DNA of 55,010 nt from Candidatus Delongbacteria bacterium (GTDB lineage: Bacteria; UBA4055). Where the stretch lies: positions 1 to 55,010 of the forward strand of contig JAFGVM010000006.1 in assembly GCA_016937995.1 (NCBI GenBank), written 5' to 3'. This document shows positions 3,325 through 27,410 of the stretch, piece by piece (the stretch's first letter is position 1; every line of letters begins with the position of its first letter). The notes beneath the pieces were generated by a model. The model made no database searches and was not told where the DNA came from. It saw only the letters and a program-made list of their open reading frames with translations. A program made the position numbers and the translations under genes.

Positions 3325-4692
3325 ATGAATAAAAAAATATTAGCTTTCATATTGATCCTAGTGATCTCATTGGTTGGTGACAACTCAATCTTGCTTGAAG
3401 ACCAAATAATTACTATCGAATGCATTGGAGTATCTTATATCGGTTCAGGAATAACTGTTGATGATGCTAAGAAATTTGCTGTAAATGATGCTAAAAGAAA
3501 CGCTCTTGAACAAGTTGGAACATACCTTGAATCCAACATAACAGTATTGGATCATATTGTGACTAAGGATGAGATCCAAACTTACACAGCTGGAATTTTA
3601 AAAACAGATATTATATCCACCAAGAAAAAAGTTGTTAACGATGTTTTTGCCATAGAAGTTCAGATCAAAGCACAAATTGACACGAAATTCCTTGATGAGC
3701 GGTTGAGTAATATTTCCAGTGATTCTCAGCTCAAGAAGACTCTTGAAGAGCAGAAAAAACTTAACGATGAACTCACCAGGCAGATCAAAGAACTTAAGAA
3801 GCATAATAAAGGTTTTGAGAAGAACAGTAAAAAAATTGCCCGATCACTTGAATCCGGTGATTGGTTCGAAATGGGGTATGAAGCGTATAAAAAAGAACAG
3901 TATGATGTTGCAGAAAAGTATTATACAAAGGCTATAAAGCTTGATCCTGATATAGCTGTAATATATAACAACAGAGGTCTTGTTTATTTCGCAATGAAAG
4001 AGCATGATAAAGCTATAAAGGACTTCAACAAAGGTATAAAGCTAAATCCTGACTTAGCTATGATCTATAACAACGCAAGTTTGGTATATTATGATCTGAA
4101 AAAGTATGATAATGTTGTCAAATACTTTACCAAAGCTCTAAAAATAGACCCCACACTCGAGGAGGTTTATTATAACAGAGGTTTTGCATACTACAAACTG
4201 AATGATTACCCTAGCTGTATACAGGATCTAAAACAATATTTGAAAATAAGTACCAATAAAAGCGGTGAAGATTATCGGGTAGAACGATTCATTAAAAAAC
4301 TTCAGTCTACTGTAAAGATGCCCGATCTGAAAAATATTAAAGTTGATGATTCCGTTTCAAAGCTCAATAACATTGGCATTACCAAGATAACAAAAGAGCA
4401 GGAATTCAGTGATAATGTTGAGAAAGACATTATAATCAATACGACACCCTCATTTGGAGATGATGCTAACAATGAGGATGGTGTAGTCCTGGTCATAAGT
4501 AAAGGACCTGAAGTGAAATATTCGATAATGCCGGATCTATATAACATGTCCCTTTCAAAGGCAAAACAACTGATAAATGATGCAGATCTAAAAGTCGGCA
4601 AGATCATTGAAGTCACTGATATAGATAAGGGATTCGACAGGATCATAGGGCAGTCAGTAAAAAAAGGTAAAGAAGTTGAACAAGGGACGTAA
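3325..4692 (+). CDS. Exported TPR protein with two C-terminal PASTA-like domains (probably frameshifted at the end)
   Basis: Predicted envelope protein. A signal peptide or anchor (about 1-20) is followed by a domain resembling the LPP20/FlgT-type fold (about 30-130), a charged coiled coil (about 135-180), about four TPR repeats (about 183-310), and two PASTA-like repeats (about 333-455). TPRs bind proteins; PASTA domains often bind cell-wall fragments, but no kinase is attached here. The reading frame ends at 4692 in EVEQGT. Restoring one base near 4689 would extend it to 4736 and add VIDITINVEAKNEKW, which closely matches the end of the paralogous PASTA protein at 11537-12376. So the last beta strand seems lost by a one-base deletion or a sequencing error. 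Confidence 0.75.
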   Translation: MNKKILAFILILVISLVGDNSILLEDQIITIECIGVSYIGSGITVDDAKKFAVNDAKRNALEQVGTYLESNITVLDHIVTKDEIQTYTAGILKTDIISTKKKVVNDVFAIEVQIKAQIDTKFLDERLSNISSDSQLKKTLEEQKKLNDELTRQIKELKKHNKGFEKNSKKIARSLESGDWFEMGYEAYKKEQYDVAEKYYTKAIKLDPDIAVIYNNRGLVYFAMKEHDKAIKDFNKGIKLNPDLAMIYNNASLVYYDLKKYDNVVKYFTKALKIDPTLEEVYYNRGFAYYKLNDYPSCIQDLKQYLKISTNKSGEDYRVERFIKKLQSTVKMPDLKNIKVDDSVSKLNNIGITKITKEQEFSDNVEKDIIINTTPSFGDDANNEDGVVLVISKGPEVKYSIMPDLYNMSLSKAKQLINDADLKVGKIIEVTDIDKGFDRIIGQSVKKGKEVEQGT

Positions 4693-7532: not shown

Positions 7533-7544
7533 TTAGATCTTTAG

Positions 7545-7581
7545 ATCGCACTTTAAATGAGTGCGATTTAATTTTCTTTTT
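7545..7581 (+). terminator. Rho-independent terminator of pnp
   Basis: Perfect 8-bp stem ATCGCACT/AGTGCGAT (7545-7552 and 7560-7567) with a 7-nt loop, then a T-rich tail. It sits 12 bp after the pnp stop. Confidence 0.85.
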
Positions 7582-7717: not shown

Positions 7718-10700
7718 ATGGAAGACGGCAATACGAAAAGAAAGCTTCGAGCTATAATGTTCACGGACATTGTAGGGTACACTACCTTAATGCAGCATGA
7801 TGAAACAGAAGCATTAAAGTTGCTCCAAAAACATAAAGATCTCGTAAAAGATATCGTTGAAAAATTTGGAGGTAAGATCATAAAGCACATTGGAGACGAG
7901 ATCTTAATCGAATCCGAAAGTGCTGTGATGCTTGTATATTCTGCTCAGGAGCTTCAGAAAAGACTTGCTGAAAGAAATGCATCAGTTCCAAAAAGCAGAG
8001 AACTTTGGGTTAGGATCGGTATTCATCTTGGAGATGTGATATTTCAGGATAATGATATTTTTGGAGACGGAGTAAATATTGCCGCACGTTTAAGACCTTT
8101 GGCTGAACCGGGTGGTATCTGTATTTCACATGCTGTGCTTAGATTACTCGGCAATCAGAATGAAATAAAGACGAGTTTCCTTGGATTAAAGAAGCTTAAG
8201 AACATTGATGAAAAAATAAAGGTATATAATGTACATGTAGATACATCTTATCAACCAAGTTTGAGCTCTAACAAGGTTAGACTGGGTGAATCAGATTCTA
8301 ATTTTTTTAAATATTTAGGTATCGGGCTTATCCTGGTTTTTCTGGGAGTGATAATTTATTTTACATTCATTAAGAGCAAGTATTCAGACTATGAACTGGA
8401 TTACTTTAGAGGAGATCTATTATCTGCACATGATAAAACTTCTGAGGATAAAGATCTGGATGATATCAAAGAACATTATTTTTATATTTCATCTGCTACC
8501 GGACTTCAAAGTGAAAAAATAAAAGTTTCTTATAGAGATCTACTGAAAAATAATCCAAAGTCACCTGAAGCTATTTTTTATTTAGGATTGGCATATTCGC
8601 TGTTCCCAAGTTCGATAACTCAACTGGACAGCTCTATTTACCTATTCAATCTGGCCAAAAGAAGAGGCATGTCAAATATTTATCTTGACCTGTGCCTTTT
8701 GAATGTATACAGGGAAAATGGTTCTATTCCTCTGGAGGCGAAAACTGCTTATTATGCAGCTGAAAAGTATCCTGATGAAATACTTTCACTAACCCAGACC
8801 GCTGCAACATTTTACAATCTGACCAATGACAGTGAAAAAGCAATAGATATGCTGGACAGATCCCTGGAGGCTTATTCACAAAATTATCGAGCATATTTTG
8901 AAAAAACCAAGATATTCTCTGACATGGGCAACTTTTCCAAAGCTTATGAATCTATCGACAGTACTTTAAGCATCGTTGCAGAAAATAAGGAAGTCCTTTC
9001 CTTTGCTGTTGAACTTTATAAAAGGAACAATGATGTAAAAAAGGCTGCTTCAGTGCTGAATAAATGGCCGGATCAATCGGCTGAAAAATACCTGAAATTA
9101 GCTCATTTGAGTTTATTTGAAAGTAATCCTGAAGATGCATTAAAATATGTAACTCAGGGTCTTGAAAAATATTCAAACGATATTAAACTTCAGGATTCGT
9201 ACAGATCAATTCTAAAATATTTGAATTTATCTGACTCTCTCAAACTAAGATCGAGATCTGTTGAGAATACGGTTTCATGGACATCAACTATCGATGTTGC
9301 ACGGAAAATGGCCGAGAATGAAAATAAACCTTTACTACTTTATTTCTCTGATAAAGAAAATCTTCCGTCTGTTTTCTTTGATCTTGCTTTCACTGATCCG
9401 TCACTTGTAACACTTATGAATTCAGTTGTAGCTCTTAAACTTTACAGAAATATTGATGATAAACTTGCTGAAAAGTATAACATAAACCATTATCCGTCTC
9501 TGGTGATGCTGACTGATAAAGAAGACCTTATTGATTCGTTTGAAAATAAGATCGGCAATGTTCAGGATGTTAATGTTATTAGATCTTTCCTGTCAGACGG
9601 TATCGACAAATACCGCTCAATTGTATCTTTGAAAGAACACGGAGATGATGCTCAGTACAAAACAGCTAAAGATTTTACCGATGCTGAAGATCTTGCAATT
9701 GATTTTGAATATCCTATAATGGTCATAGGGTCAGACAGTAATTCTAAACTTTCTCAAAAATTCTTAAAAGAGACCATTTTTCATCCTAGTTTTTTGTCGA
9801 ATTTCAAAGAAATGATACTTCTTACACTGGATATAAACAAGAATAAGAATTTTTTCAAAAGTTTCAGAGTTGATAAATTCCCTGCTGTTCTATTCTTTAA
9901 TCAGGATGTAAGTTTTATATCATGGAAATACGGTGTACAGCCAAAACATGTTCTAGCTAAACTGATAGAACATATAAAACTTTTCCGGGCAGGAAAAGAC
10001 TACATAAGACCAGAGATCAACTGGGTCTACGATTTTGAAGAGGCGACCCGTTTTGCAAAAGAAGGTGATCTGAATATTCTTGCTTACATTACAAATTCAG
10101 AACAGCTTGAGCCAAAAATAAATATCTTTAACGATCAGAAGATAATAAAGAAGATCAATTCTGAATTCATACCGCTTTTAACAAAAGTCGATTCTTTATC
10201 CACTGATCCGATGAACGGCTACGAATATTATCCGATGGTCACTATTATGAACCCTCAGGGTCAGATACTTTACAGAACTTCTCTTTCAGACAACTATGAT
10301 GAAACTATTACGTTTTTAAATATGAAAGATCATGAAGACATCCTTATTTCACAAGGTGCACAGGAATTTGAAGACATATTTGAGAATTTTAGCTTAGCGA
10401 TTAATTTCTCGGAAAATAAATATTTTAATTCTTCCGAAAATATATATGTGGACATTGCTATGAGATTTCCTCAGCTGTCCCACATTTATGTTCATCTTGC
10501 AGAAAGTTTTTTAAACAGAAATAAGTTGAAAAAAGCGCTTCATTACTCGTCCCAGTTAAATAATGCTGAACTTGCTCCGGATATACATGATCTCAAGATC
10601 GTAGTAAGTTCATATCTTTTAGATAACAGATTCGCAGAGCTTGAGAAGTATATGATCAATGCTAAGCTCGCTAATTTCAGAGATCCCGTGATAGTAGGAA

Positions 10701-11485
10701 TGATTTATGCGGCTTTGAGCGAAATGGAGATGGCTTTATCCAATAATTCCATCGCTATTCAGTACGCTGAAAAAGCTATTGAAAACGAAAAAACAAATGC
10801 GGAACATTACTTTCATCTTGGTAAATTGTTCTATCTGAAGAAAATGAACACAGCCGCTGCTAAACAGTTCAAAATAGCTACAATACTTGATCCTGATATG
10901 GCAAATGCATACTTTTATCTGTATCTGCTTTCAGGAGATGAAAAAGCTCTTTCAAGAGCTAAACTATTGTACCATCAGGGAAAGTATAATGAGAATACTT
11001 TCAGGTTCATTGATGAAAAATTCACTTATTCTCAAAAAGGATTTACTGATGTAATTCAGGATGAATTGAAGAACAGATTAAAACTTTTCCCAGGAAAAAT
11101 AGAATTTGAGTATGATTATGCTAAATTTCTTTCTGAGAATGATGGAAATATGACTGAAGCTCTTAACCTGATCAATAATATCCTGCAATACGATCCTAAT
11201 GATCCTGCATATAATGATACGGCTGCATGGATCTTCTATAATTTAGGTGATTATCCTGTTGCGAATAAATTGAGTACCAAAGCTTTAAGAGAGATCCCGA
11301 AAGAAAGTTATTATCTATATCCTGACTTACTTTATCATGCCGGAATTATCAAAGCATCTATAGGGGATAAAAAATCTGCGGGTGTTTTCTTTGAATCGTT
11401 CCTGGCTATTGAGAACCTGGGTGGAAAGTTCTGGAAAAAAACTCAATACGCAAAAAAATATATTAAAAAAATGAGTAATAGTTAA
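7718..11485 (+). CDS. Adenylate cyclase fused to TPR and thioredoxin-like repeats
   Basis: A 1255-residue membrane protein. The N-terminus is a class III nucleotide cyclase domain (about 8-180): metal-binding Asp17 (FTDIVG) and Asp60 (HIGDE), substrate-selecting Lys56 and Asp113, and Asn120/Arg124 (VNIAAR). This Lys/Asp pair predicts ATP, so cAMP is the likely product. One membrane segment (about 198-218) follows. The rest, presumably periplasmic, has TPR-like helices (about 245-515), three tandem thioredoxin-like domains (about 525-625, 655-762, 768-870) that keep a cis-proline-like motif (YPSL, FPAV, YPMV) but have no CXXC, and a second TPR block (about 900-1250). It may relay an envelope protein-binding signal to cAMP; that role is inference. 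The next gene encodes a PASTA protein. Confidence 0.88.
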   Translation: MEDGNTKRKLRAIMFTDIVGYTTLMQHDETEALKLLQKHKDLVKDIVEKFGGKIIKHIGDEILIESESAVMLVYSAQELQKRLAERNASVPKSRELWVRIGIHLGDVIFQDNDIFGDGVNIAARLRPLAEPGGICISHAVLRLLGNQNEIKTSFLGLKKLKNIDEKIKVYNVHVDTSYQPSLSSNKVRLGESDSNFFKYLGIGLILVFLGVIIYFTFIKSKYSDYELDYFRGDLLSAHDKTSEDKDLDDIKEHYFYISSATGLQSEKIKVSYRDLLKNNPKSPEAIFYLGLAYSLFPSSITQLDSSIYLFNLAKRRGMSNIYLDLCLLNVYRENGSIPLEAKTAYYAAEKYPDEILSLTQTAATFYNLTNDSEKAIDMLDRSLEAYSQNYRAYFEKTKIFSDMGNFSKAYESIDSTLSIVAENKEVLSFAVELYKRNNDVKKAASVLNKWPDQSAEKYLKLAHLSLFESNPEDALKYVTQGLEKYSNDIKLQDSYRSILKYLNLSDSLKLRSRSVENTVSWTSTIDVARKMAENENKPLLLYFSDKENLPSVFFDLAFTDPSLVTLMNSVVALKLYRNIDDKLAEKYNINHYPSLVMLTDKEDLIDSFENKIGNVQDVNVIRSFLSDGIDKYRSIVSLKEHGDDAQYKTAKDFTDAEDLAIDFEYPIMVIGSDSNSKLSQKFLKETIFHPSFLSNFKEMILLTLDINKNKNFFKSFRVDKFPAVLFFNQDVSFISWKYGVQPKHVLAKLIEHIKLFRAGKDYIRPEINWVYDFEEATRFAKEGDLNILAYITNSEQLEPKINIFNDQKIIKKINSEFIPLLTKVDSLSTDPMNGYEYYPMVTIMNPQGQILYRTSLSDNYDETITFLNMKDHEDILISQGAQEFEDIFENFSLAINFSENKYFNSSENIYVDIAMRFPQLSHIYVHLAESFLNRNKLKKALHYSSQLNNAELAPDIHDLKIVVSSYLLDNRFAELEKYMINAKLANFRDPVIVGMIYAALSEMEMALSNNSIAIQYAEKAIENEKTNAEHYFHLGKLFYLKKMNTAAAKQFKIATILDPDMANAYFYLYLLSGDEKALSRAKLLYHQGKYNENTFRFIDEKFTYSQKGFTDVIQDELKNRLKLFPGKIEFEYDYAKFLSENDGNMTEALNLINNILQYDPNDPAYNDTAAWIFYNLGDYPVANKLSTKALREIPKESYYLYPDLLYHAGIIKASIGDKKSAGVFFESFLAIENLGGKFWKKTQYAKKYIKKMSNS

Positions 11486-11536: not shown

Positions 11537-12376
11537 ATGAAGTCTTTTGTAATTTCATTTCTAACATCGATAGTAATCACTGCAGTAATGTTCGTTCTTT
11601 TTGCCACAAATACGATAAACATCTCTAAGATTTTCCCTGATAATGTATTTAATAAAGGAAATGAGGATAATATCGTTGTTTTGCCAAATATGCTAAATTT
11701 AACAGTGGATGAGGCACAGCAGGCTGTTGCCGAATTCGATGTTAAAATGATGCTTGAAGAGGAAATGACAGACAAAGTTCAGGCAGGAGTGATCATTAAA
11801 CAGTTTCCCCTTCCTGGTTTTAAAGTACTGAAAGGTGATGCTGTTAAACTTACCGTCTCCAAAAGGGATGAAGAAATAGCTGAAGAAGAGGGAGATGAAG
11901 GTGAAGATCTTTTTGATGAACCTGGAATGGATATCGTTATCGAAACAGCCATTACAATGCCTGATCTTGAAAAAATGGAATTAAATGAAGCTGTATTAAA
12001 ACTCAATGATATCGGTATTGATAACATTACTAAGGATTTTGAACCTAATGATAATATAAAAAAGGGTTTTGTGATCCAGTACTCTCCATCTTTTGGTCAG
12101 GAGATCGATAATGTGGACGGAGTCAGGTTATTGATAAGTGAAGGTCCATCAATAAAATATTCCACAGTCCCTAATCTGTACAACAAATCATTGGCTAAGG
12201 CAAAAGAAGAGATCGCCAATGCTAAATTAAAACTCGGAAAAGTTACCAAAGTAACAGACATCGATAAAGGATTTGACCGGATTATTGCCCAGTCAATTGT
12301 AAAAGGTAAAAAGGTTACCCAGGGAACTGTTATAGATATTACTTTAAATGCTGAAGCCGAAGGCGATGAATGGTAA
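11537..12376 (+). CDS. Membrane-anchored protein with three PASTA domains
   Basis: A 279-residue protein with an N-terminal membrane anchor (about 5-27) and three PASTA-like repeats: about 48-112, 142-205 and 207-272. An acidic linker lies between the first and second. PASTA domains usually sit outside Ser/Thr kinases or penicillin-binding proteins and sense cell-wall pieces; here no catalytic domain is attached. The last two repeats are close paralogs of the end of the protein at 3325-4692, with shared phrases such as VTDIDKGFDRII. The ATG has a modest AGGTAA 6 nt upstream. It lies 51 bp after the cyclase gene and a hairpin follows it, so the two probably form one unit. Confidence 0.85.
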   Translation: MKSFVISFLTSIVITAVMFVLFATNTINISKIFPDNVFNKGNEDNIVVLPNMLNLTVDEAQQAVAEFDVKMMLEEEMTDKVQAGVIIKQFPLPGFKVLKGDAVKLTVSKRDEEIAEEEGDEGEDLFDEPGMDIVIETAITMPDLEKMELNEAVLKLNDIGIDNITKDFEPNDNIKKGFVIQYSPSFGQEIDNVDGVRLLISEGPSIKYSTVPNLYNKSLAKAKEEIANAKLKLGKVTKVTDIDKGFDRIIAQSIVKGKKVTQGTVIDITLNAEAEGDEW

Positions 12377-12451: not shown

Positions 12452-14128
12452 ATGATAAACTATATTATAAAATACACCACTTTCTTTTTATTATTTTTCC
12501 ATCTCCTTGCATATTCAAAAAAATACCACTTTACCTCTTCTGATATCAAAAATATACCTGCAAGAGACATTTATGGTGTTCTGGATAAAATTGCAACACT
12601 TCATGGTCTAAGTTACGGTCACACGGGTCAGGTGTCTCAGATAAGATCATTGGGTAAAGACCTCCTGACAACTATTATTTATATAGATGATGTTCCAGTA
12701 TCTAATTTTAATTCCGGTTTAATAAATTTATCCTCTTTATCACTGGACAGGATCGATAATATCGTTATAGATGATTCCCCGGCAGGCAGTTCCTCACTTG
12801 CCATTTATATATGCACAAAAAAATATGATACAACTGTACCAGTAACAGAAATGGTTTACAGAGATGCTTTTTATAACCATAGAAATATATCAATGCACTT
12901 AGGTCAAAATTTTAATGAAGACACATCTTTTCTTCTTTATGCTGAGATAACAGATTACAGAGACCACAGAGAATCATCAGATAATTTTAAATACCCCTAT
13001 CAGAAGCAGAATTACAACTTACAGATCAATTTACCGTCCATATTCTTTTTTAAACCTGTTTTTGAAGCATCTTATTTAAAAGAGGATATTTTTGATCTTT
13101 CTTTGGACTCTGCGCAATATAAACCTGAAGAGACTAGATTTTTATTAAAACTGAATTCAGATTCAGGAGCAGATAATAAATATGTTAATACTCTTTCTTT
13201 TATTAACTCTCACAGAAATGATCATTTTGATCATGATAACAGGAATTTCAGGATCTATGACCGATTCTCTTATGATGATTCAAAGAACTCCTTCCTATTA
13301 AATTCACAGCTGGATCATTACAGCTATAGAGATCTCCGGGGTGAAACATCATTTTCATTAGAACCTTCATATCAAAGAACATTTAGTTCATTCAGTGCAT
13401 ATTTTAAAACTTTCTTTTTATACTCTGACTTTAGCAGGGAGTCCTTTTCCGCAGATATTGAGCTGGATCAAAATTTACCTTTAGGATTTGAAATTACTTC
13501 TGAACATTCCATATTCAAAGGTAATTACAGAATTCTTGATTCGGTCATAGAATCTGAATATTTCCAGAACGAAATATATCTTGGAAATAATTTTAACCTT
13601 CCCGGTATATCTGTTTCAATAAACTCAGGTATAGATATTATAGAGTATCAAAAAAATATATCTAAAACCTTTTCAGGATATCTTGCCAAAGGAGTGAACA
13701 GATTCTCAAAAAGCAAACTTGATCTTCAAATTTTCAGTGATCTTAAATTAAAAATATACTTTTCTCATAAATTCAACTCTGATATGATCCTGAATGATCC
13801 CAATTCCACAGTTGTAACATCATTGAATTTTACAAAAAAATACTTCAAGGATAATCTTGACATATCTACTACAGTTCTTCATAAATACTCTGATTTTTAC
13901 ATAGATTATAATAACAGGCAAATTATCAACAACCTCGGTTTTAATCTGCGAGTAAAGATAATTGATCTGGAGTTATTTTTCGGAATAGATAATATCATGA
14001 AGAACAAATATGATATTAATAACACAACCTACATCTTGAATGAGCATTATGGATATCAGACAATTCAAGGATACGATATGCAGAGGTTTGATGAAATCTG
14101 GGGTGTCCGTTGGATTTTTAGATATTAG
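12452..14128 (+). CDS. TonB-dependent receptor-like outer membrane protein
   Basis: A 558-residue predicted outer-membrane barrel. After a signal peptide (about 1-21), residues about 35-120 look like a TonB plug: GVLDKIATLHGLSYG, then IRSLGKDLLTTIIYIDDVP, near the plug consensus of a ligand-gated barrel. The remainder alternates polar and aromatic residues as in beta strands and ends in WGVRWIFRY, a typical aromatic C-terminus for barrel insertion. It is shorter than common TonB receptors (over 650 residues), so the barrel may have fewer strands. No TonB box or ligand is evident. The last 23 bases, including the stop, are duplicated 71 bp downstream. Confidence 0.7.
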   Translation: MINYIIKYTTFFLLFFHLLAYSKKYHFTSSDIKNIPARDIYGVLDKIATLHGLSYGHTGQVSQIRSLGKDLLTTIIYIDDVPVSNFNSGLINLSSLSLDRIDNIVIDDSPAGSSSLAIYICTKKYDTTVPVTEMVYRDAFYNHRNISMHLGQNFNEDTSFLLYAEITDYRDHRESSDNFKYPYQKQNYNLQINLPSIFFFKPVFEASYLKEDIFDLSLDSAQYKPEETRFLLKLNSDSGADNKYVNTLSFINSHRNDHFDHDNRNFRIYDRFSYDDSKNSFLLNSQLDHYSYRDLRGETSFSLEPSYQRTFSSFSAYFKTFFLYSDFSRESFSADIELDQNLPLGFEITSEHSIFKGNYRILDSVIESEYFQNEIYLGNNFNLPGISVSINSGIDIIEYQKNISKTFSGYLAKGVNRFSKSKLDLQIFSDLKLKIYFSHKFNSDMILNDPNSTVVTSLNFTKKYFKDNLDISTTVLHKYSDFYIDYNNRQIINNLGFNLRVKIIDLELFFGIDNIMKNKYDINNTTYILNEHYGYQTIQGYDMQRFDEIWGVRWIFRY

Positions 14129-14205: not shown

Positions 14206-16467
14206 CTACTTCCGGACTATAGCTATTTTTCCGATTATCTTTTTAGTAGGATCTTCATCATTATATGCTACGATCTGATAAATACCGGAAGAAACGATCT
14301 CACCATTATTATCCCTGCCGTTCCAACCACCTGAAGTTGAAAATACACTGTTACCTGTTCCACCTTTTATCAGTTTTCCGTTAAGGCTGAATATTTTAGC
14401 GGAGTTGTATGTATTATCGGGAAAAATAAAATGAACCAATGAAGTACCGTCATTTAAAAATGGTGATGGTATTGTAGCTATTTCATCACTTTGCAGCTCT
14501 TCTTTATCCACAAGACTCTCATCTTCATAAAATGTTATCCCGTTGTAAGATGAAAATATTGCTGTCTCATTTTCTGAACTCAGTACAATATCAGTAACAG
14601 TATTATCAGGTAATGATCCGTAAACGATCTTTCCCTCCAATCTGCCGTCATCCTTATAGCTGGCCGGTACGAAATGTCTCCATTCTGTATTGTCTGAGGA
14701 TAAAACACTTACACCTTTATCTGTTGCAAACCATTTTTCATCCACATCACTAATTTCAATATCATAGATCATATTACCGACCGGTCCTTCTACGATACTA
14801 CTGATATTATATGATTCAAGGTCAGATGGTCTGTCAATATCAAGATAATTAAGATCAATGTATTTTATTCCTGCATTGGTTCCGATCCATACAAAATTAT
14901 TTTTATCCTGGTTGATTGAGATAATCCCGCCTAATCCTGTAAAATTTTTTATATCGAGTGAATCTCCCAAAATCCTTCCAACTGTTAGACCGTCCCTTTC
15001 ATTAAACTGCTCGGACGAGCTGCCTATCCATAGCCAGTTACGGTTATCCACAAAAATTTCGAACGGGCTTGGAGGTACACCATCTGTAATTGAGTACTTA
15101 TAAGGAGTTATTGTGCCATTTGTACTGATCTTAACGATAGTTGAATCCAGGTCTGTGTTATAATAATTTGTGAACCATAGATCTCCGTTATTATCTTTAC
15201 AAACCCCGGGATGTGTTGGATATTTGGCAAATAACGGACCGTTGAATATATATCTCTGATCAAAATCATATCCGTCCGTTTCTTTTGAAAATTTTGCTAC
15301 ACCTGTTGTCCAGGTACATATATATACATTTCCGTTGTTATCTTCAATAAAATTCTTTGCCTGCCAGATCCTTGATTCTGTATAATACTCGTCATTGAAT
15401 TCCTCATAAATCATATCAAAACTTCTAAATCCGAATGATGTAAGATACTGCAGTTTATTATCCTGAGTTACAATAATTTTTTTGATCCCTTTTTCTGCAG
15501 GTAAATTAAATTCTTGATCTGTTGGAATTCCGCCTGTAATTGCAGTAAATGAGAAACCTGATCTGGATGTATAGTATATTATGTCATTCTCTATATAAAA
15601 TCTCTCTGCGATCTGATCGGTGGTCCGGTAGATCTCATCCGGTGCCGAAAGTAGAGATATGTCAGATTTGTAAATTATCTGATCGGTTGAGTTCTGTAAA
15701 TAATAAAATTCATTGTTGTATATCTGCCCCCACATAATATCCAAACTATCAGCGAGTGTTTCTTTAACGACCGAACTTCCATCTATTGTGTAAATACCGT
15801 TTGTTGTTAGAGCTACAACGACATTGCCTATCTCTAAAAATTTATTAATATGAGTTGATGCATCAAACCCTGAGACAAGGCTCCAGTTATTCATATAACT
15901 AATGTTCGTACTTTCTTCCTGGATCATGTAAACTCCGGTATCAGTTGCAATATAAATATATTCATCCCCACCTGAACCGGATACGATCACATCAGATACA
16001 TTTCCAGTCATTAAATTGCTGTCAGTTACAATGTATTTTTCAAATGCATCATTATATGTATACCTTACAAGAAGCTTGTCACCTGCAACATATATATAAT
16101 TTTGTGAGGAATACAACCTGTTGAGAAAGTATGTTCCATATTCTTCTATATCACTAAGAGCCCCGATACCACGACCATTCTGATCGAACAGTGAAATAGT
16201 ACAGTCTGAATGTCCTGCCCATACCACGTTCTTAAAATCAACACAGACAGTTGTAGTATTTATTTTAAAAAGCCCATTGTCAGTATCATATATATTGCTC
16301 TCTGATCCATCATATTCTATAAGTCCTCCATCAGTTGCAACATAGATCATATTATTTGCGGATATAATATCATTTCCTCTTGATATTGAGCAATATGTAC
16401 TCCAGTCTCCGATCTTTGCCTGTAATAAAAATACTCCTACCAAAATTCCTATTATTGATGCTCTCAT
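14206..16467 (-). CDS. PorZ-like beta-propeller protein with FlgD/type IX-style C-terminal domain
   Basis: A 753-residue secreted protein. A signal peptide (about 1-17) precedes WSTY and VATDGGLIEYD, as at the start of PorZ-type and two-component-regulator propeller proteins. Many blade-like repeats (for example LWFTNYYN, LWIGSS, VWIGTNAGI, KWFATDKGVSVL) suggest one or two beta propellers. The last about 90 residues (IPSPF, then AKIFSLNGKLI, GGWNGRDNNGE, SGIYQIV) match the FlgD-Ig/type IX sorting-like fold of FCB bacteria. PorZ acts at the cell surface in type IX secretion; whether this protein does so is inference. It starts 4 bp after the CNNM gene ends, so the two are co-transcribed. Confidence 0.75.
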   Translation of the reverse strand: MRASIIGILVGVFLLQAKIGDWSTYCSISRGNDIISANNMIYVATDGGLIEYDGSESNIYDTDNGLFKINTTTVCVDFKNVVWAGHSDCTISLFDQNGRGIGALSDIEEYGTYFLNRLYSSQNYIYVAGDKLLVRYTYNDAFEKYIVTDSNLMTGNVSDVIVSGSGGDEYIYIATDTGVYMIQEESTNISYMNNWSLVSGFDASTHINKFLEIGNVVVALTTNGIYTIDGSSVVKETLADSLDIMWGQIYNNEFYYLQNSTDQIIYKSDISLLSAPDEIYRTTDQIAERFYIENDIIYYTSRSGFSFTAITGGIPTDQEFNLPAEKGIKKIIVTQDNKLQYLTSFGFRSFDMIYEEFNDEYYTESRIWQAKNFIEDNNGNVYICTWTTGVAKFSKETDGYDFDQRYIFNGPLFAKYPTHPGVCKDNNGDLWFTNYYNTDLDSTIVKISTNGTITPYKYSITDGVPPSPFEIFVDNRNWLWIGSSSEQFNERDGLTVGRILGDSLDIKNFTGLGGIISINQDKNNFVWIGTNAGIKYIDLNYLDIDRPSDLESYNISSIVEGPVGNMIYDIEISDVDEKWFATDKGVSVLSSDNTEWRHFVPASYKDDGRLEGKIVYGSLPDNTVTDIVLSSENETAIFSSYNGITFYEDESLVDKEELQSDEIATIPSPFLNDGTSLVHFIFPDNTYNSAKIFSLNGKLIKGGTGNSVFSTSGGWNGRDNNGEIVSSGIYQIVAYNDEDPTKKIIGKIAIVRK

Positions 16468-22919: not shown

Positions 22920-23448
22920 AATATTCTTAATATTTTTGATACTGACGATCTCGGCATGTACAGTAAAAATTCCTGATATTAAGATAACCGGAGAAAAAAC
23001 AGCTTTGGAAAATCAGGTACTCGGGGAATATTCCAAGATCAAGGAAGATGCATGGATGGTCACTTCTGAAAGAGGAGACGGCCAGATCAGGATAACTGCT
23101 GACCGTAAAGAAGTGGTCGAAGCTGTCAGGGACAGAGAATTCTTGAAGGATGATATCAGCGAACTTAAGATCAAGGGATATCTGGGAGAATTAAACAACG
23201 GTCAAATAGATGTTGTGGATGCTGGTGAAGTGGCAAAACTTAATAAAAAAGAGAAAGACCTTATCAAACTTCTGATGGAAAAAGAAAATAAAGCCCGAAA
23301 ATTGATCATGGAAAGAATAATAGAGACCGATGCTAAATTTAAATCTTCACCTGAAGAGGTCTATCAGGCATTTTTTGTTATGAATCTGGAAGATTCACCA
23401 GAAAATACATTCTATAAAAATAAAAAAGACAAATGGGTTAAGAAGTAG
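22897..23448 (+). CDS. DUF1318 (YdbL-like) lipoprotein
   Basis: A 183-residue predicted lipoprotein: a hydrophobic N-terminus ends in ISAC (lipobox, Cys21), then VTGEKTALE-like sequence (here ITGEKTALENQVLGEY) that marks the DUF1318/YdbL family. The C-terminal half is a highly charged helix with KENKARKLIMERI. The function of the family is unknown; it often accompanies large AsmA/YdbH-type envelope proteins, which are not present here. The start lies inside dapB (ATG at 22897, alternative ATG 22906), so coupling is likely. Its end overlaps the end of the convergent kinase gene by 11 bp. Confidence 0.8.
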   Translation: MEWMIYFKIFLIFLILTISACTVKIPDIKITGEKTALENQVLGEYSKIKEDAWMVTSERGDGQIRITADRKEVVEAVRDREFLKDDISELKIKGYLGELNNGQIDVVDAGEVAKLNKKEKDLIKLLMEKENKARKLIMERIIETDAKFKSSPEEVYQAFFVMNLEDSPENTFYKNKKDKWVKK

Positions 23449-26400
23449 TATTAAAATGCTCAATGATCTTCTGTCCCCTTCTAAAGAAATATGTTGTTTT
23501 AAAGAGTTCTTCCTGAACATTATCCATATTAGCCAGTAAATATTCTTTAATTTCCTCGTAGAAACCTACAAAAGGAGCTATTTTTTCCTTTTCAACTTTA
23601 GCCATCAGAGCAAATTCCATAAATGGAATTATTGAATAAACATTTATCATGGTAAAACCGGCAATATGAAGCTTTTTAGAAAGCTCTAATATGGTGTTTA
23701 TAAGATTTTCATTTTTTGTAAGCATGAACCTTGTGATATTATAGACAAGAAAATCACCTGTGATCTCAGGATTCAAAAATCTCTTCTCTATTTTTCCCAT
23801 TACCTTGTCCATTGGAGGCAGCTTTTTATATTTTTTTGTATAGTGCAAAAGCATCATAGGTGTCTCTAGCTGCAGATTGCCATTCAATATATCATCCATC
23901 TGAGATGGAGACCACCTGTAACAAATATTATGCTCATAGAATACATCCAGACTTTCCTTGTATACCCTATATATCTCATCTGTGAGAACATTATCATCAT
24001 ACAGAGCTTTGATATCTGTCAAAGCTTCTTCTTTGGTAAATATTTCGGGATAATATTTTGCTATCCTGTCAAAATTTGTAAGCAATTTCGCTTCTGTTGA
24101 ATGCCTGAAATATAAATATGCTTTCCTTATAATTTTTTTTGCCGATTTGAAATCCCCTGTTCTGTGATAGAGAATGAATTCGTTAGTTAAAAGTTCGATG
24201 TAAAGTTCCAGTCTGTTTGTTTCTTTTGCCTGCCTTCTGATCTCTCTAAGCAAGCTTATTATTTCTCCCAAAGGATAGTAGAGATTTATCTTTGTAGATA
24301 CAACATCTCCCAGATCATCAAGACTGAGAGATCTTTTTAATTTGTCAGAAAGGTATATTTTCTTATTTTCAAAGTATAGTGCTTTTTCATAATCAGAGGT
24401 ATAGTAATAGTAATTTGCAAGGGTCCTTAATATGAGAAACATATTTTCAGTATCCTTCTCTTTGTAGGCAACCTCTAATCCGTATGTCAACCTCTCGCTA
24501 TAGTCCTGCTCGATACATTCTCTTTCTGCAAATTTTGCCAAAGTACTCAGAAGATAAAAATAGTTGTCGTTGAATATCTTTTTCGATACAAATACATCTA
24601 TGTATTCTGATATTCTTTCCTCCAGATGATCATTCCATGGAATAACTCCATAAACTATCTTCATAGTATCCAGGATTATCTGATACTCTACCAGTTCATC
24701 TTTATCCTTATTGAAATCCTCTTCAAGTATTTTGGTCAACTCAACTCCATTATCATAATATTTCCTGCTCGATAATAAATTATGCAAAACTTCGAACATA
24801 TCATGATAAAATTCTTCAGCAGATAAATTGGCCTTATAGATCTCGAGGTTCTTCCTGACAAAAGAAATGATATTGTAATCATAGTAAAATTCATTATGAA
24901 GATAAAGCTTTATTCTGATGTACTTCAATTTACTTTCAATACTGGTTATCTCTTCCTGGAAAGTTTTTTCAACCGATTTAATGATCTTAACAGCTTTTTC
25001 TATATCAACACCTTCCAGGAAGAAAGCAAAATTCAACTCTAACCGGAATTTTACTTCCTGATCTTCACAAAGCTTAATGCAATTCAGTAGTAAATAATAC
25101 AAATTATCGTTTGTATCACGTTTACGCATGATCTCAACATATTTATTTAAATTCGCAAGTTGAGATATATCAATTCCGTTCAAAATATATTTTAATATCC
25201 TTACTGCTGCTCTTGAGAATTTATCATCTTGATCCAGCTTGATAATTCTCGAATAATACTTTTTTAAAGGTTCTTTTTTGATAGAGCTAAAGATATAGTC
25301 CTTAATTTCACTCTTTACAACTTTATAGAGGTTTTTATAACCTGATATTAATCCAAGATTTACCAGTCTTGACAGAATTTTTTTCAGATCAAAATCACTC
25401 AAAGGTATGAATTTTTTTATTTCTTCAACCGTTAGCTTATTGAATGTTACTGTTAACAATATCAAAATATTTATGTCGTTTTCATCAAGTCCTTTTATAA
25501 GACTTTTCACCGACTTCTTACTGCCTCTTTTCAGAACCTTTATGAAATTGTCCTTGTTTTTGAAGAACAAGACTCCTCCAACATAAGTGATCACATTTTT
25601 CTGAATCAATCCGTCAAAAAATGTCATAAGTGTCCTAAAATTTCCCGCACTGTAATCAAATATAAGTTTATTGAAATTCGATGGCACATTACCGATATCA
25701 CCAAGGAAATATGAAATTACTTTCTCAGTTTCTTCAAATGATAAAGTAGGAACTTCAATGCTCTCTATCTCTGGGTCATATTCAATGAGTTTATAGCTCT
25801 GTTCTATATTCTGTGGCATCTTATCCGTTGTAAGAGAAATAATGAGATATAGACAACCCTCTTTATTTTGACCTATCAATCTGTTGATGAACCTTACCGA
25901 TTCCTGATCATATCTTTCAAAATTATCAAAAATTATCGTGAGCTTATTTTTCCTATCATTTGAACATAAGCACAAAAAATTGATCACATCATCATAAATA
26001 TAAAAATAATCCTGCTCTTTCTCTGCAATGGAATTGATCTCGTTGTTGATTCTTTGATATTCATCCTCGATGTCTACTATTCCCTTGAAGTTGTTATATG
26101 CTTTTTTAAGAAGCAGCTTACCTATTAAAAAATCCTCACTTGTATTATCTTCAAGATACATACGTATGATCTTCTCTAGAGATAATGTGATATTGTAAAA
26201 TATCTGATCCAGTATTTTTGTCTTACCGGATCCTGATACTCCATATAAAAATACGGTTTTACCACTTTTCTTCTGGTCTGTAAGCTTATGGATCTTAAGA
26301 AGATTACTGAAAATATTTTCTCTAAGGATAAACTTGGTATTATTCAAAAAAGATGTTGTGTGAAAGATATTCGGTATAGGATATTTTGTGCCAAATGTAC

Positions 26401-27235
26401 TGTTCAGAACACTTATTGCCTCAATTGCGGACGATATTCTTGTTCCTGGATCTTTCTGGATCAGGTGGGAAATGAAATATTTTATCTTTTTACTCTTAAT
26501 TTCATTAAGTAACTGCCTGTTGTTATCATACATTTCATTTAATGCCTGAAGCAACCTTTCCCCGCTGATCTTCTTTGACAATGATGAATAATAACTTTCC
26601 CCTGCAGTTGCATGGATTACAGCTATTCCAAGAGAGTAAAGATCTATTTTTGGAGATACTTTTGTGGGATCCAGAAAAAACTCAGGTGCGATATATTCTA
26701 TAGTTCCTCTGACCGCTCCCTGCTCTGACAGTGTATTTTTTATCTCAGACAATCCGAAATCTATTAATTTTACGATAAGATCTCCATCATTATCAATTAT
26801 AATGATGTTCTCAGGCTTTATATCAAAATGGATCACCTCATTAGAATGAAGATAATTCAGACCGTCTAAGACCTGATAAACAACATTTGCAAATACATCC
26901 TCACCTAAAGAGTCATTGTAGAATTCTTTTAAATTCAATCCGTTTAGATAGTCCATTGTGTAATAATACTTACCCAGCTTAGTATCATAGCCAAAATCGT
27001 AAACGTTTATAATATTTTTATGATTCAAGGATTTTATGATCGAAAATTCAGATTTTACAGATTCCAGTATGTCTTTTATATGATCTTTCTCTTCTGATGA
27101 AACTTTTATTAATTTTAATGCCAGTTCGATCTTTGATGTGATCGTTTTCACCTGAACTATCATTCCCTGTGAACCGCTTCCCAAGATCTTTTCAACGGTA
27201 TACATAGAATCTATTACTGTACCTATCTCTACCAA
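23438..27235 (-). CDS. Giant Ser/Thr protein kinase with AAA-type ATPase and helical repeat region
   Basis: A predicted cytosolic signalling protein of about 1265 residues. Numbered from the start chosen here, it has a eukaryotic-like kinase domain (about 8-290) with glycine loop LGSGSQG, Lys41 (ALKLIK), catalytic loop HFDIKPEN (Asp138), DFG (Asp159) and GTIEYIAPE. An AAA/NACHT-like ATPase follows, with Walker A GVSGSGKT near 330 and Walker B TIIFDNFE near 430. Then come about 700 residues of TPR-like helices. The catalytic loop has HFD instead of HRD. The start is TTG at 27235, because GGAG lies 6 nt upstream; a longer version from GTG at 27268 lacks such a site. Similar kinase-ATPase-TPR proteins act as regulatory hubs; targets are unknown. 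Confidence 0.88.
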   Translation of the reverse strand: MVEIGTVIDSMYTVEKILGSGSQGMIVQVKTITSKIELALKLIKVSSEEKDHIKDILESVKSEFSIIKSLNHKNIINVYDFGYDTKLGKYYYTMDYLNGLNLKEFYNDSLGEDVFANVVYQVLDGLNYLHSNEVIHFDIKPENIIIIDNDGDLIVKLIDFGLSEIKNTLSEQGAVRGTIEYIAPEFFLDPTKVSPKIDLYSLGIAVIHATAGESYYSSLSKKISGERLLQALNEMYDNNRQLLNEIKSKKIKYFISHLIQKDPGTRISSAIEAISVLNSTFGTKYPIPNIFHTTSFLNNTKFILRENIFSNLLKIHKLTDQKKSGKTVFLYGVSGSGKTKILDQIFYNITLSLEKIIRMYLEDNTSEDFLIGKLLLKKAYNNFKGIVDIEDEYQRINNEINSIAEKEQDYFYIYDDVINFLCLCSNDRKNKLTIIFDNFERYDQESVRFINRLIGQNKEGCLYLIISLTTDKMPQNIEQSYKLIEYDPEIESIEVPTLSFEETEKVISYFLGDIGNVPSNFNKLIFDYSAGNFRTLMTFFDGLIQKNVITYVGGVLFFKNKDNFIKVLKRGSKKSVKSLIKGLDENDINILILLTVTFNKLTVEEIKKFIPLSDFDLKKILSRLVNLGLISGYKNLYKVVKSEIKDYIFSSIKKEPLKKYYSRIIKLDQDDKFSRAAVRILKYILNGIDISQLANLNKYVEIMRKRDTNDNLYYLLLNCIKLCEDQEVKFRLELNFAFFLEGVDIEKAVKIIKSVEKTFQEEITSIESKLKYIRIKLYLHNEFYYDYNIISFVRKNLEIYKANLSAEEFYHDMFEVLHNLLSSRKYYDNGVELTKILEEDFNKDKDELVEYQIILDTMKIVYGVIPWNDHLEERISEYIDVFVSKKIFNDNYFYLLSTLAKFAERECIEQDYSERLTYGLEVAYKEKDTENMFLILRTLANYYYYTSDYEKALYFENKKIYLSDKLKRSLSLDDLGDVVSTKINLYYPLGEIISLLREIRRQAKETNRLELYIELLTNEFILYHRTGDFKSAKKIIRKAYLYFRHSTEAKLLTNFDRIAKYYPEIFTKEEALTDIKALYDDNVLTDEIYRVYKESLDVFYEHNICYRWSPSQMDDILNGNLQLETPMMLLHYTKKYKKLPPMDKVMGKIEKRFLNPEITGDFLVYNITRFMLTKNENLINTILELSKKLHIAGFTMINVYSIIPFMEFALMAKVEKEKIAPFVGFYEEIKEYLLANMDNVQEELFKTTYFFRRGQKIIEHFNTTS

Positions 27236-27410
27236 TTCATACTCCGAACAAAATGTAATTTTTATCACAGACCCGATGTTTAAATTAATTTTACCATTAT
27301 TTAAACCCGTCGATATGCTGTTAATAGCTTATACTGTAATAATAAGTAATAGTTTTTCCTTACACAAACACTAATATATTAATTATCGACCATCATTTGC
27401 AACATATCAC

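Follow-up and report, generated by a model that had tools for sequence, protein, structure and literature searches.

We report here a Candidatus Delongbacteria protein in which a class III cyclase domain is followed, in order, by one membrane helix, a block of TPRs, three thioredoxin folds and a second block of TPRs, and whose middle thioredoxin-like domain is, as newly observed here, almost as constrained within its genus as the cyclase itself, with the loops of its groove kept. It is encoded by an open reading frame of 1255 residues (7718..11485, + strand; ATG start, 0 internal stops) in the window, the 55,010-nucleotide stretch of DNA analysed here, which is one contig of a draft genome (2.75 Mb, 97% completeness). 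We propose, with confidence a little better than even, that the protein acts as an adenylate cyclase of receptor type, in which a protein or peptide bound by the periplasmic arm would set cAMP output. The domain order had been put forward in an earlier sequence-only reading of the same DNA, and Pfam, hydropathy, AlphaFold2 and Foldseek all bear it out. Copies in other genera repeat the whole architecture at 37-38% full-length identity, and this recurrence, together with low pN/pS, argues that the architecture is not a product of chance. Coding on the reverse strand of the same interval was considered and rejected, as the one frame translated is crowded with stops, and a mis-assembled fusion was likewise rejected, as independent assemblies share the architecture.

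The cyclase domain occupies residues 1-175 (7718..8242, +). Pfam PF00211 (Guanylate_cyc) matches residues 12-170 with E=4.6e-17 and 62.6 bits against a curated cut-off of 21.9, and the closest solved structure is 3mr7 (E=5.9e-34). The full residue set is present, with two metal Asp, an ATP-selecting Lys/Asp and a transition-state Asn/Arg: D17, K56, D60, D113, N120 and R124 are identical in 9/9 rows spanning the domain. Catalytic Asp17 and Asp60 and the Lys56/Asp113 pair had already been singled out from the letters of the sequence, and Asn120 and Arg124 can now be added to them. As all six catalytic residues are identical in all covering rows the cyclase domain should be catalytically competent, and the candidate of an inactive cyclase was dropped given their retention. 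The Lys56/Asp113 pair of class III cyclases presumably favours ATP, and the product would by that token be cAMP rather than cGMP. Five genes with cNMP-binding domains are found in the genome, two of them with a CRP-like C-terminal part (assigned by eye), so that cAMP could be read out. At loci L008 (G000:C9), L003 (G000:C6), L004 (G000:C15) and L005 (G000:C93), the same genome also encodes four more proteins of 1226-1334 aa, each matching the cyclase domain twice, as well as one of 723 aa.

A single membrane helix follows at residues about 200-218 (8315..8371, +). It is the sole hydrophobic helix, with hydropathy windows starting at residues 194-205 and a peak of 2.7, and it is the fastest-evolving part of the protein, at 47-53% amino acid identity within the genus. 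Its flanks are positive on the N-side and acidic on the C-side in most homologues; those of the window protein are nearly even (3+/2- on the N-side vs 3+/4- on the C-side). With an N-terminal domain that uses ATP and one membrane helix after it, the arm is expected to lie outside the cytoplasm, presumably in the periplasm. An N-terminal cyclase, a membrane helix and C-terminal TPRs together make up the layout of cyclase-TM-TPR receptors, and the protein has all three. Rhizobial class III cyclase-TPR fusions (L082, L090, L084, L093), annotated as 'adenylate/guanylate cyclase domain-containing protein', have the same type of N-terminal cyclase with 44-49% identity in the best matches, and carry TPRs after the cyclase in each of these four loci; in L082 and L090 the cyclase is also followed by a hydrophobic helix. 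The readable frames of the 20 nearest cyclases outside the phylum run to 300-1079 aa, compared with 1255 aa in the Delongbacteria protein, and a thioredoxin-like domain was detectable in 0/20 of them.

The arm begins with a first TPR solenoid of 17 helices at residues about 225-515 (8390..9262, +), identified from the AlphaFold2 arm model and TPR matches, and ends with a second at residues 881-1250 (10358..11467, +), identified from AlphaFold2 and a match to PF14559 (1.1e-11). The arm model, computed from seven rows (the AlphaFold2 alignments hold just 7-8), places three alpha-beta domains between two TPR solenoids with a pLDDT of 76 and a pTM of 0.42, at which the relative placement of the domains is unreliable. 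The three central domains lie at residues 520-640 (9275..9637, +), 648-756 (9659..9985, +) and 769-869 (10022..10324, +). Domain 1 matches PF13899 above the cut-off (E=8.9e-8), domain 2 matches PF13098 weakly (1.2e-4), and domain 3 has no Pfam match; by hhalign, domain 1 is related to domains 2 and 3 at 92-94% probability (93.5% for domain 3), and domains 2 and 3 are related to each other weakly. A separate AlphaFold2 model of residues 500-885, the better one for the triplet, repeats the thioredoxin alpha-beta pattern three times (pLDDT 77, pTM 0.57), in line with three predicted folds over the interval 520-875 for which they had been anticipated. Searched against the PDB with Foldseek, the triplet model retrieves multi-domain PDI, ERp44, ERdj5 and calsequestrin (best E 1.5e-11); the whole-triplet TM-scores are low (0.2-0.3), as is to be expected if the domain arrangement differs, and the search supports the individual folds.

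These folds have kept one hallmark of thioredoxins and lost another. A cis-Pro-like proline, assigned by its position in the sequence as one per domain (P593, P722 and P839), is invariant in every covering homologue row. The only cysteines of the window protein are residues 135 and 326, with none in residues 505-885 and thus none in the triplet, and a CXXC is absent from the triplet in all homologue rows; neither the CXXC nor the CXXS of a redox-active thioredoxin or disulfide oxidoreductase is found. The genome also encodes two ordinary Thioredoxin_7 proteins, which retain WCGWC and WCGNC, and in an alignment to them, approximate at these identities, the CXXC positions are occupied by non-cysteine residues in 3/3 domains. 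AlphaFold2, Foldseek and the alignment therefore agree with the original description of three tandem thioredoxin-like domains with the cis-proline kept and the redox cysteines gone.

Among solved proteins, calsequestrin likewise consists of three tandem thioredoxin folds (Foldseek E 6.8e-10) and lacks a CXXC; at 10-13% identity the likeness is in fold only, and calsequestrin is a eukaryotic Ca2+ store without cyclase or TPR. ERp44 and the b-type domains of PDI, which bind protein clients, have tandem thioredoxin folds in common with the triplet, some of them non-catalytic; ERp44 and PDI differ in containing at least one catalytic-type domain, in their compartment and in their fusion partners. 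Conceivably, then, the arm could serve as an envelope chaperone or assembly scaffold that holds unfolded or outer-membrane proteins in the manner of CnoX and ERp44, with the cyclase reporting its occupancy. The Foldseek matches are ER chaperones, a barrel gene adjoins (see below), and a thioredoxin fold joined to TPRs is the layout of the chaperedoxin CnoX/YbbN (PMC7084401). CnoX/YbbN is a soluble cytosolic protein of 284 aa whose one thioredoxin domain is N-terminal and precedes the TPRs, and it has no cyclase, compared with three internal domains in a membrane-anchored cyclase here. The high constraint on domain 2 described next points more to one dedicated partner than to the holding of clients in general, and we regard the chaperone reading as unlikely.

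Constraint is distributed unevenly along the protein. Compared with a congener, the cyclase has an amino acid identity of 0.92 and domain 2 one of 0.90, with domain 3 at 0.71 and domain 1 at 0.64; the two TPR regions stand at 0.65 and 0.80, and the linker with the helix at 0.47. Ratios of pN/pS, rough values given synonymous sites near saturation, are 0.06-0.24 across the cyclase and thioredoxin regions, with 0.07 in both the cyclase and domain 2, and rates are low across the TPRs. Domain 2 is thus the most constrained part of the arm. Between genera its identity is 0.41-0.46 vs 0.25-0.39 for domains 1 and 3, except in the partial copy L017 where domains 2 and 3 are equal (0.33), and it has the most invariant columns of the triplet, including F721-P722 and Y738-G739, which from the alignment we take to be the cis-Pro loop and the glycine loop lining the thioredoxin substrate groove. 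This pattern suggests that domain 2 keeps a putative binding site without the chemistry. It also bears on whether the thioredoxin-like domains are mere structural spacers between two TPR solenoids that themselves do the sensing, as could be argued from their missing catalytic residues and from domain 1 being as variable as the first TPR region; with domain 2 conserved above any TPR region, and every row keeping FP722 and YG739, we consider such a passive role improbable.

The proposed receptor function is also informed by the genes around the cyclase. On contigs that reach far enough, pnp is followed in turn by the genes for the cyclase, a triple-PASTA membrane protein and a plug-bearing barrel, and then, in the window and in L034, L038 and L039, by one for a propeller protein on the opposite strand. 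The PASTA protein (11537..12376, +; 279 aa) has an N-terminal membrane helix and three stretches matching PF03793 (7e-33), and its gene adjoins the cyclase in every homologous locus with a contig extending that far; in the window the cyclase-PASTA and PASTA-barrel gaps are 51 and 75 bases. The next gene (12452..14128, +; 558 aa) encodes a probable outer-membrane barrel with an N-terminal TonB-plug-like domain, a designation drawn from PF07715, 8blw and synteny: the PF07715 plug is matched by 4/7 barrel homologues (best 9.7e-6), with the window copy at 20.7 bits vs a cut-off of 23.9, the plug region of BtuB1 (8blw) matches the barrel N-terminus weakly (0.001), and the last residue of the protein is aromatic. 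A terminator-like hairpin after pnp (7541..7571, +; 13-bp stem and T-rich tail, a consensus match only) would set pnp apart from the cyclase operon in the window genome. The barrel occurs alone, away from any cyclase, in G001 and G002, in which the cyclase gene was not found, so that the barrel-cyclase link is conserved and not obligate. G008 was considered as a further cyclase-less genome and rejected, its locus having a run of N upstream of the barrel end (L071 1-8001, G008:C5).

Several features of these loci merit separate mention. In L035 (9134-10598, G005) the barrel gene lies in two open pieces with in-frame stops, alongside intact cyclase and PASTA genes. The propeller protein of the window (14206-16467, -) is syntenic in several relatives; its match to the N-terminal propeller of PorZ, from type IX secretion, falls below threshold, as does that of its C-terminus to FlgD-Ig. 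Upstream, a TPR-PASTA gene (3325-4692) stops early at ...EVEQGT where its homologues end in ...VIDITVNVEA..GW, and a neighbouring frame carries on with a similar ending, which looks like a frameshift within the final PASTA repeat but could also be an assembly error. Its PASTA stretch is 57% identical to the L033 and L034 homologues of the 11537-12376 gene 7 kb away, which suggests duplication or exchange between the PASTA parts of the two genes. Further downstream, the window encodes a protein kinase of 1276 aa (23438-27268, -) with a sub-threshold AAA-type region.

The architecture appears confined to this lineage. The phylum is represented in the genome set searched by 13 genomes of one family, and the architecture is found, full-length or fragmentary, in 5/7 Delongbacteria genera (g1, g4, g5, g6 and g7), the g4 copy consisting of the N-terminal part only at a contig end and the g5 copy of the C-terminal half only. 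Outside the phylum, the cyclase domain is accompanied by TPRs, kinases or propellers, and a triplet profile at E<=1e-8 recovered the architecture from 0/373 sampled genomes. None of 459 plasmid records with matches spans 80% of the query, and when about 85,000 species genomes were scanned with a peptide pattern, all loci recovered were of Delongbacteria type. Two of the seven loci from a scan of genome contigs, L036 and L037, are counted here as Delongbacteria. We found no description of a fusion of cyclase, TPR and thioredoxin-like domains in the literature. The cyclase-triplet combination was thus met only in Delongbacteria-type loci, and the sequence-only reading's impression that it was not a known one holds across the 373 genomes, the 20 nearest cyclases, the roughly 85,000-species scan and the literature searched.

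A mechanism consistent with these observations can be outlined for the receptor-type cyclase that we favour. Two cytosolic catalytic domains would have to pair to form active sites, and the single membrane helix would bear a periplasmic arm of roughly 1030 residues in which three redox-dead thioredoxin folds are set between TPRs. The thioredoxin domains, the middle one above all, may bind a protein or peptide non-covalently through the old substrate groove, as PDI b-type domains do, with the cis-Pro loop FP722 and the KYG739 loop as candidate groove elements; the likely partners would be the PASTA protein encoded alongside and the outer-membrane barrel's plug. Ligand binding would then alter the pairing of the two chains and with it the rate of cAMP synthesis, and the cAMP could be read by the CRP-type regulators. 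The notion of an envelope-state sensor that makes cAMP thereby gains support from the conserved PASTA and barrel neighbours; the sensing itself, like the dimer control, the ligand binding and the partners, we continue to infer.

In a narrower form of this explanation, the barrel would take up a surface signal, the PASTA protein would link across the wall and the cyclase would make cAMP. In Sinorhizobium meliloti an outer-membrane receptor, NsrA, works together with CyaK and CyaD1/D2, which are cyclases of the inner membrane, and with Clr as the regulator (PMC7529298, PMC5498481). An outer-membrane receptor, receptor-like inner-membrane cyclases and a CRP-type regulator would be common to both cases, a likeness in logic; the passages on that pathway mention no thioredoxin-like arm, and the PASTA protein between barrel and cyclase sets the Delongbacteria locus apart. 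The conserved cyclase-PASTA-barrel gene order speaks for an NsrA/CyaK-like relay and the two genomes with a barrel and no cyclase speak against it, and we entertain it tentatively, as possible rather than probable. Held just as tentatively is the proposal of a dedicated Delongbacteria trans-envelope relay, in which an outer-membrane plug-barrel, a wall-binding PASTA protein and a cyclase with its redox-dead triplet serving as the periplasmic binding module might convert surface or envelope events into cAMP.

Bacterial receptor cyclases are numerous, but a ligand or a mechanism of sensing is known for few of them. The sensing arm described here has a recognisable putative binding module and two conserved candidate partner genes, which makes the question of what it senses directly testable. 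If our reading is true, it would be an example from bacteria of tandem thioredoxin folds that, though redox-dead, serve as a receptor domain.
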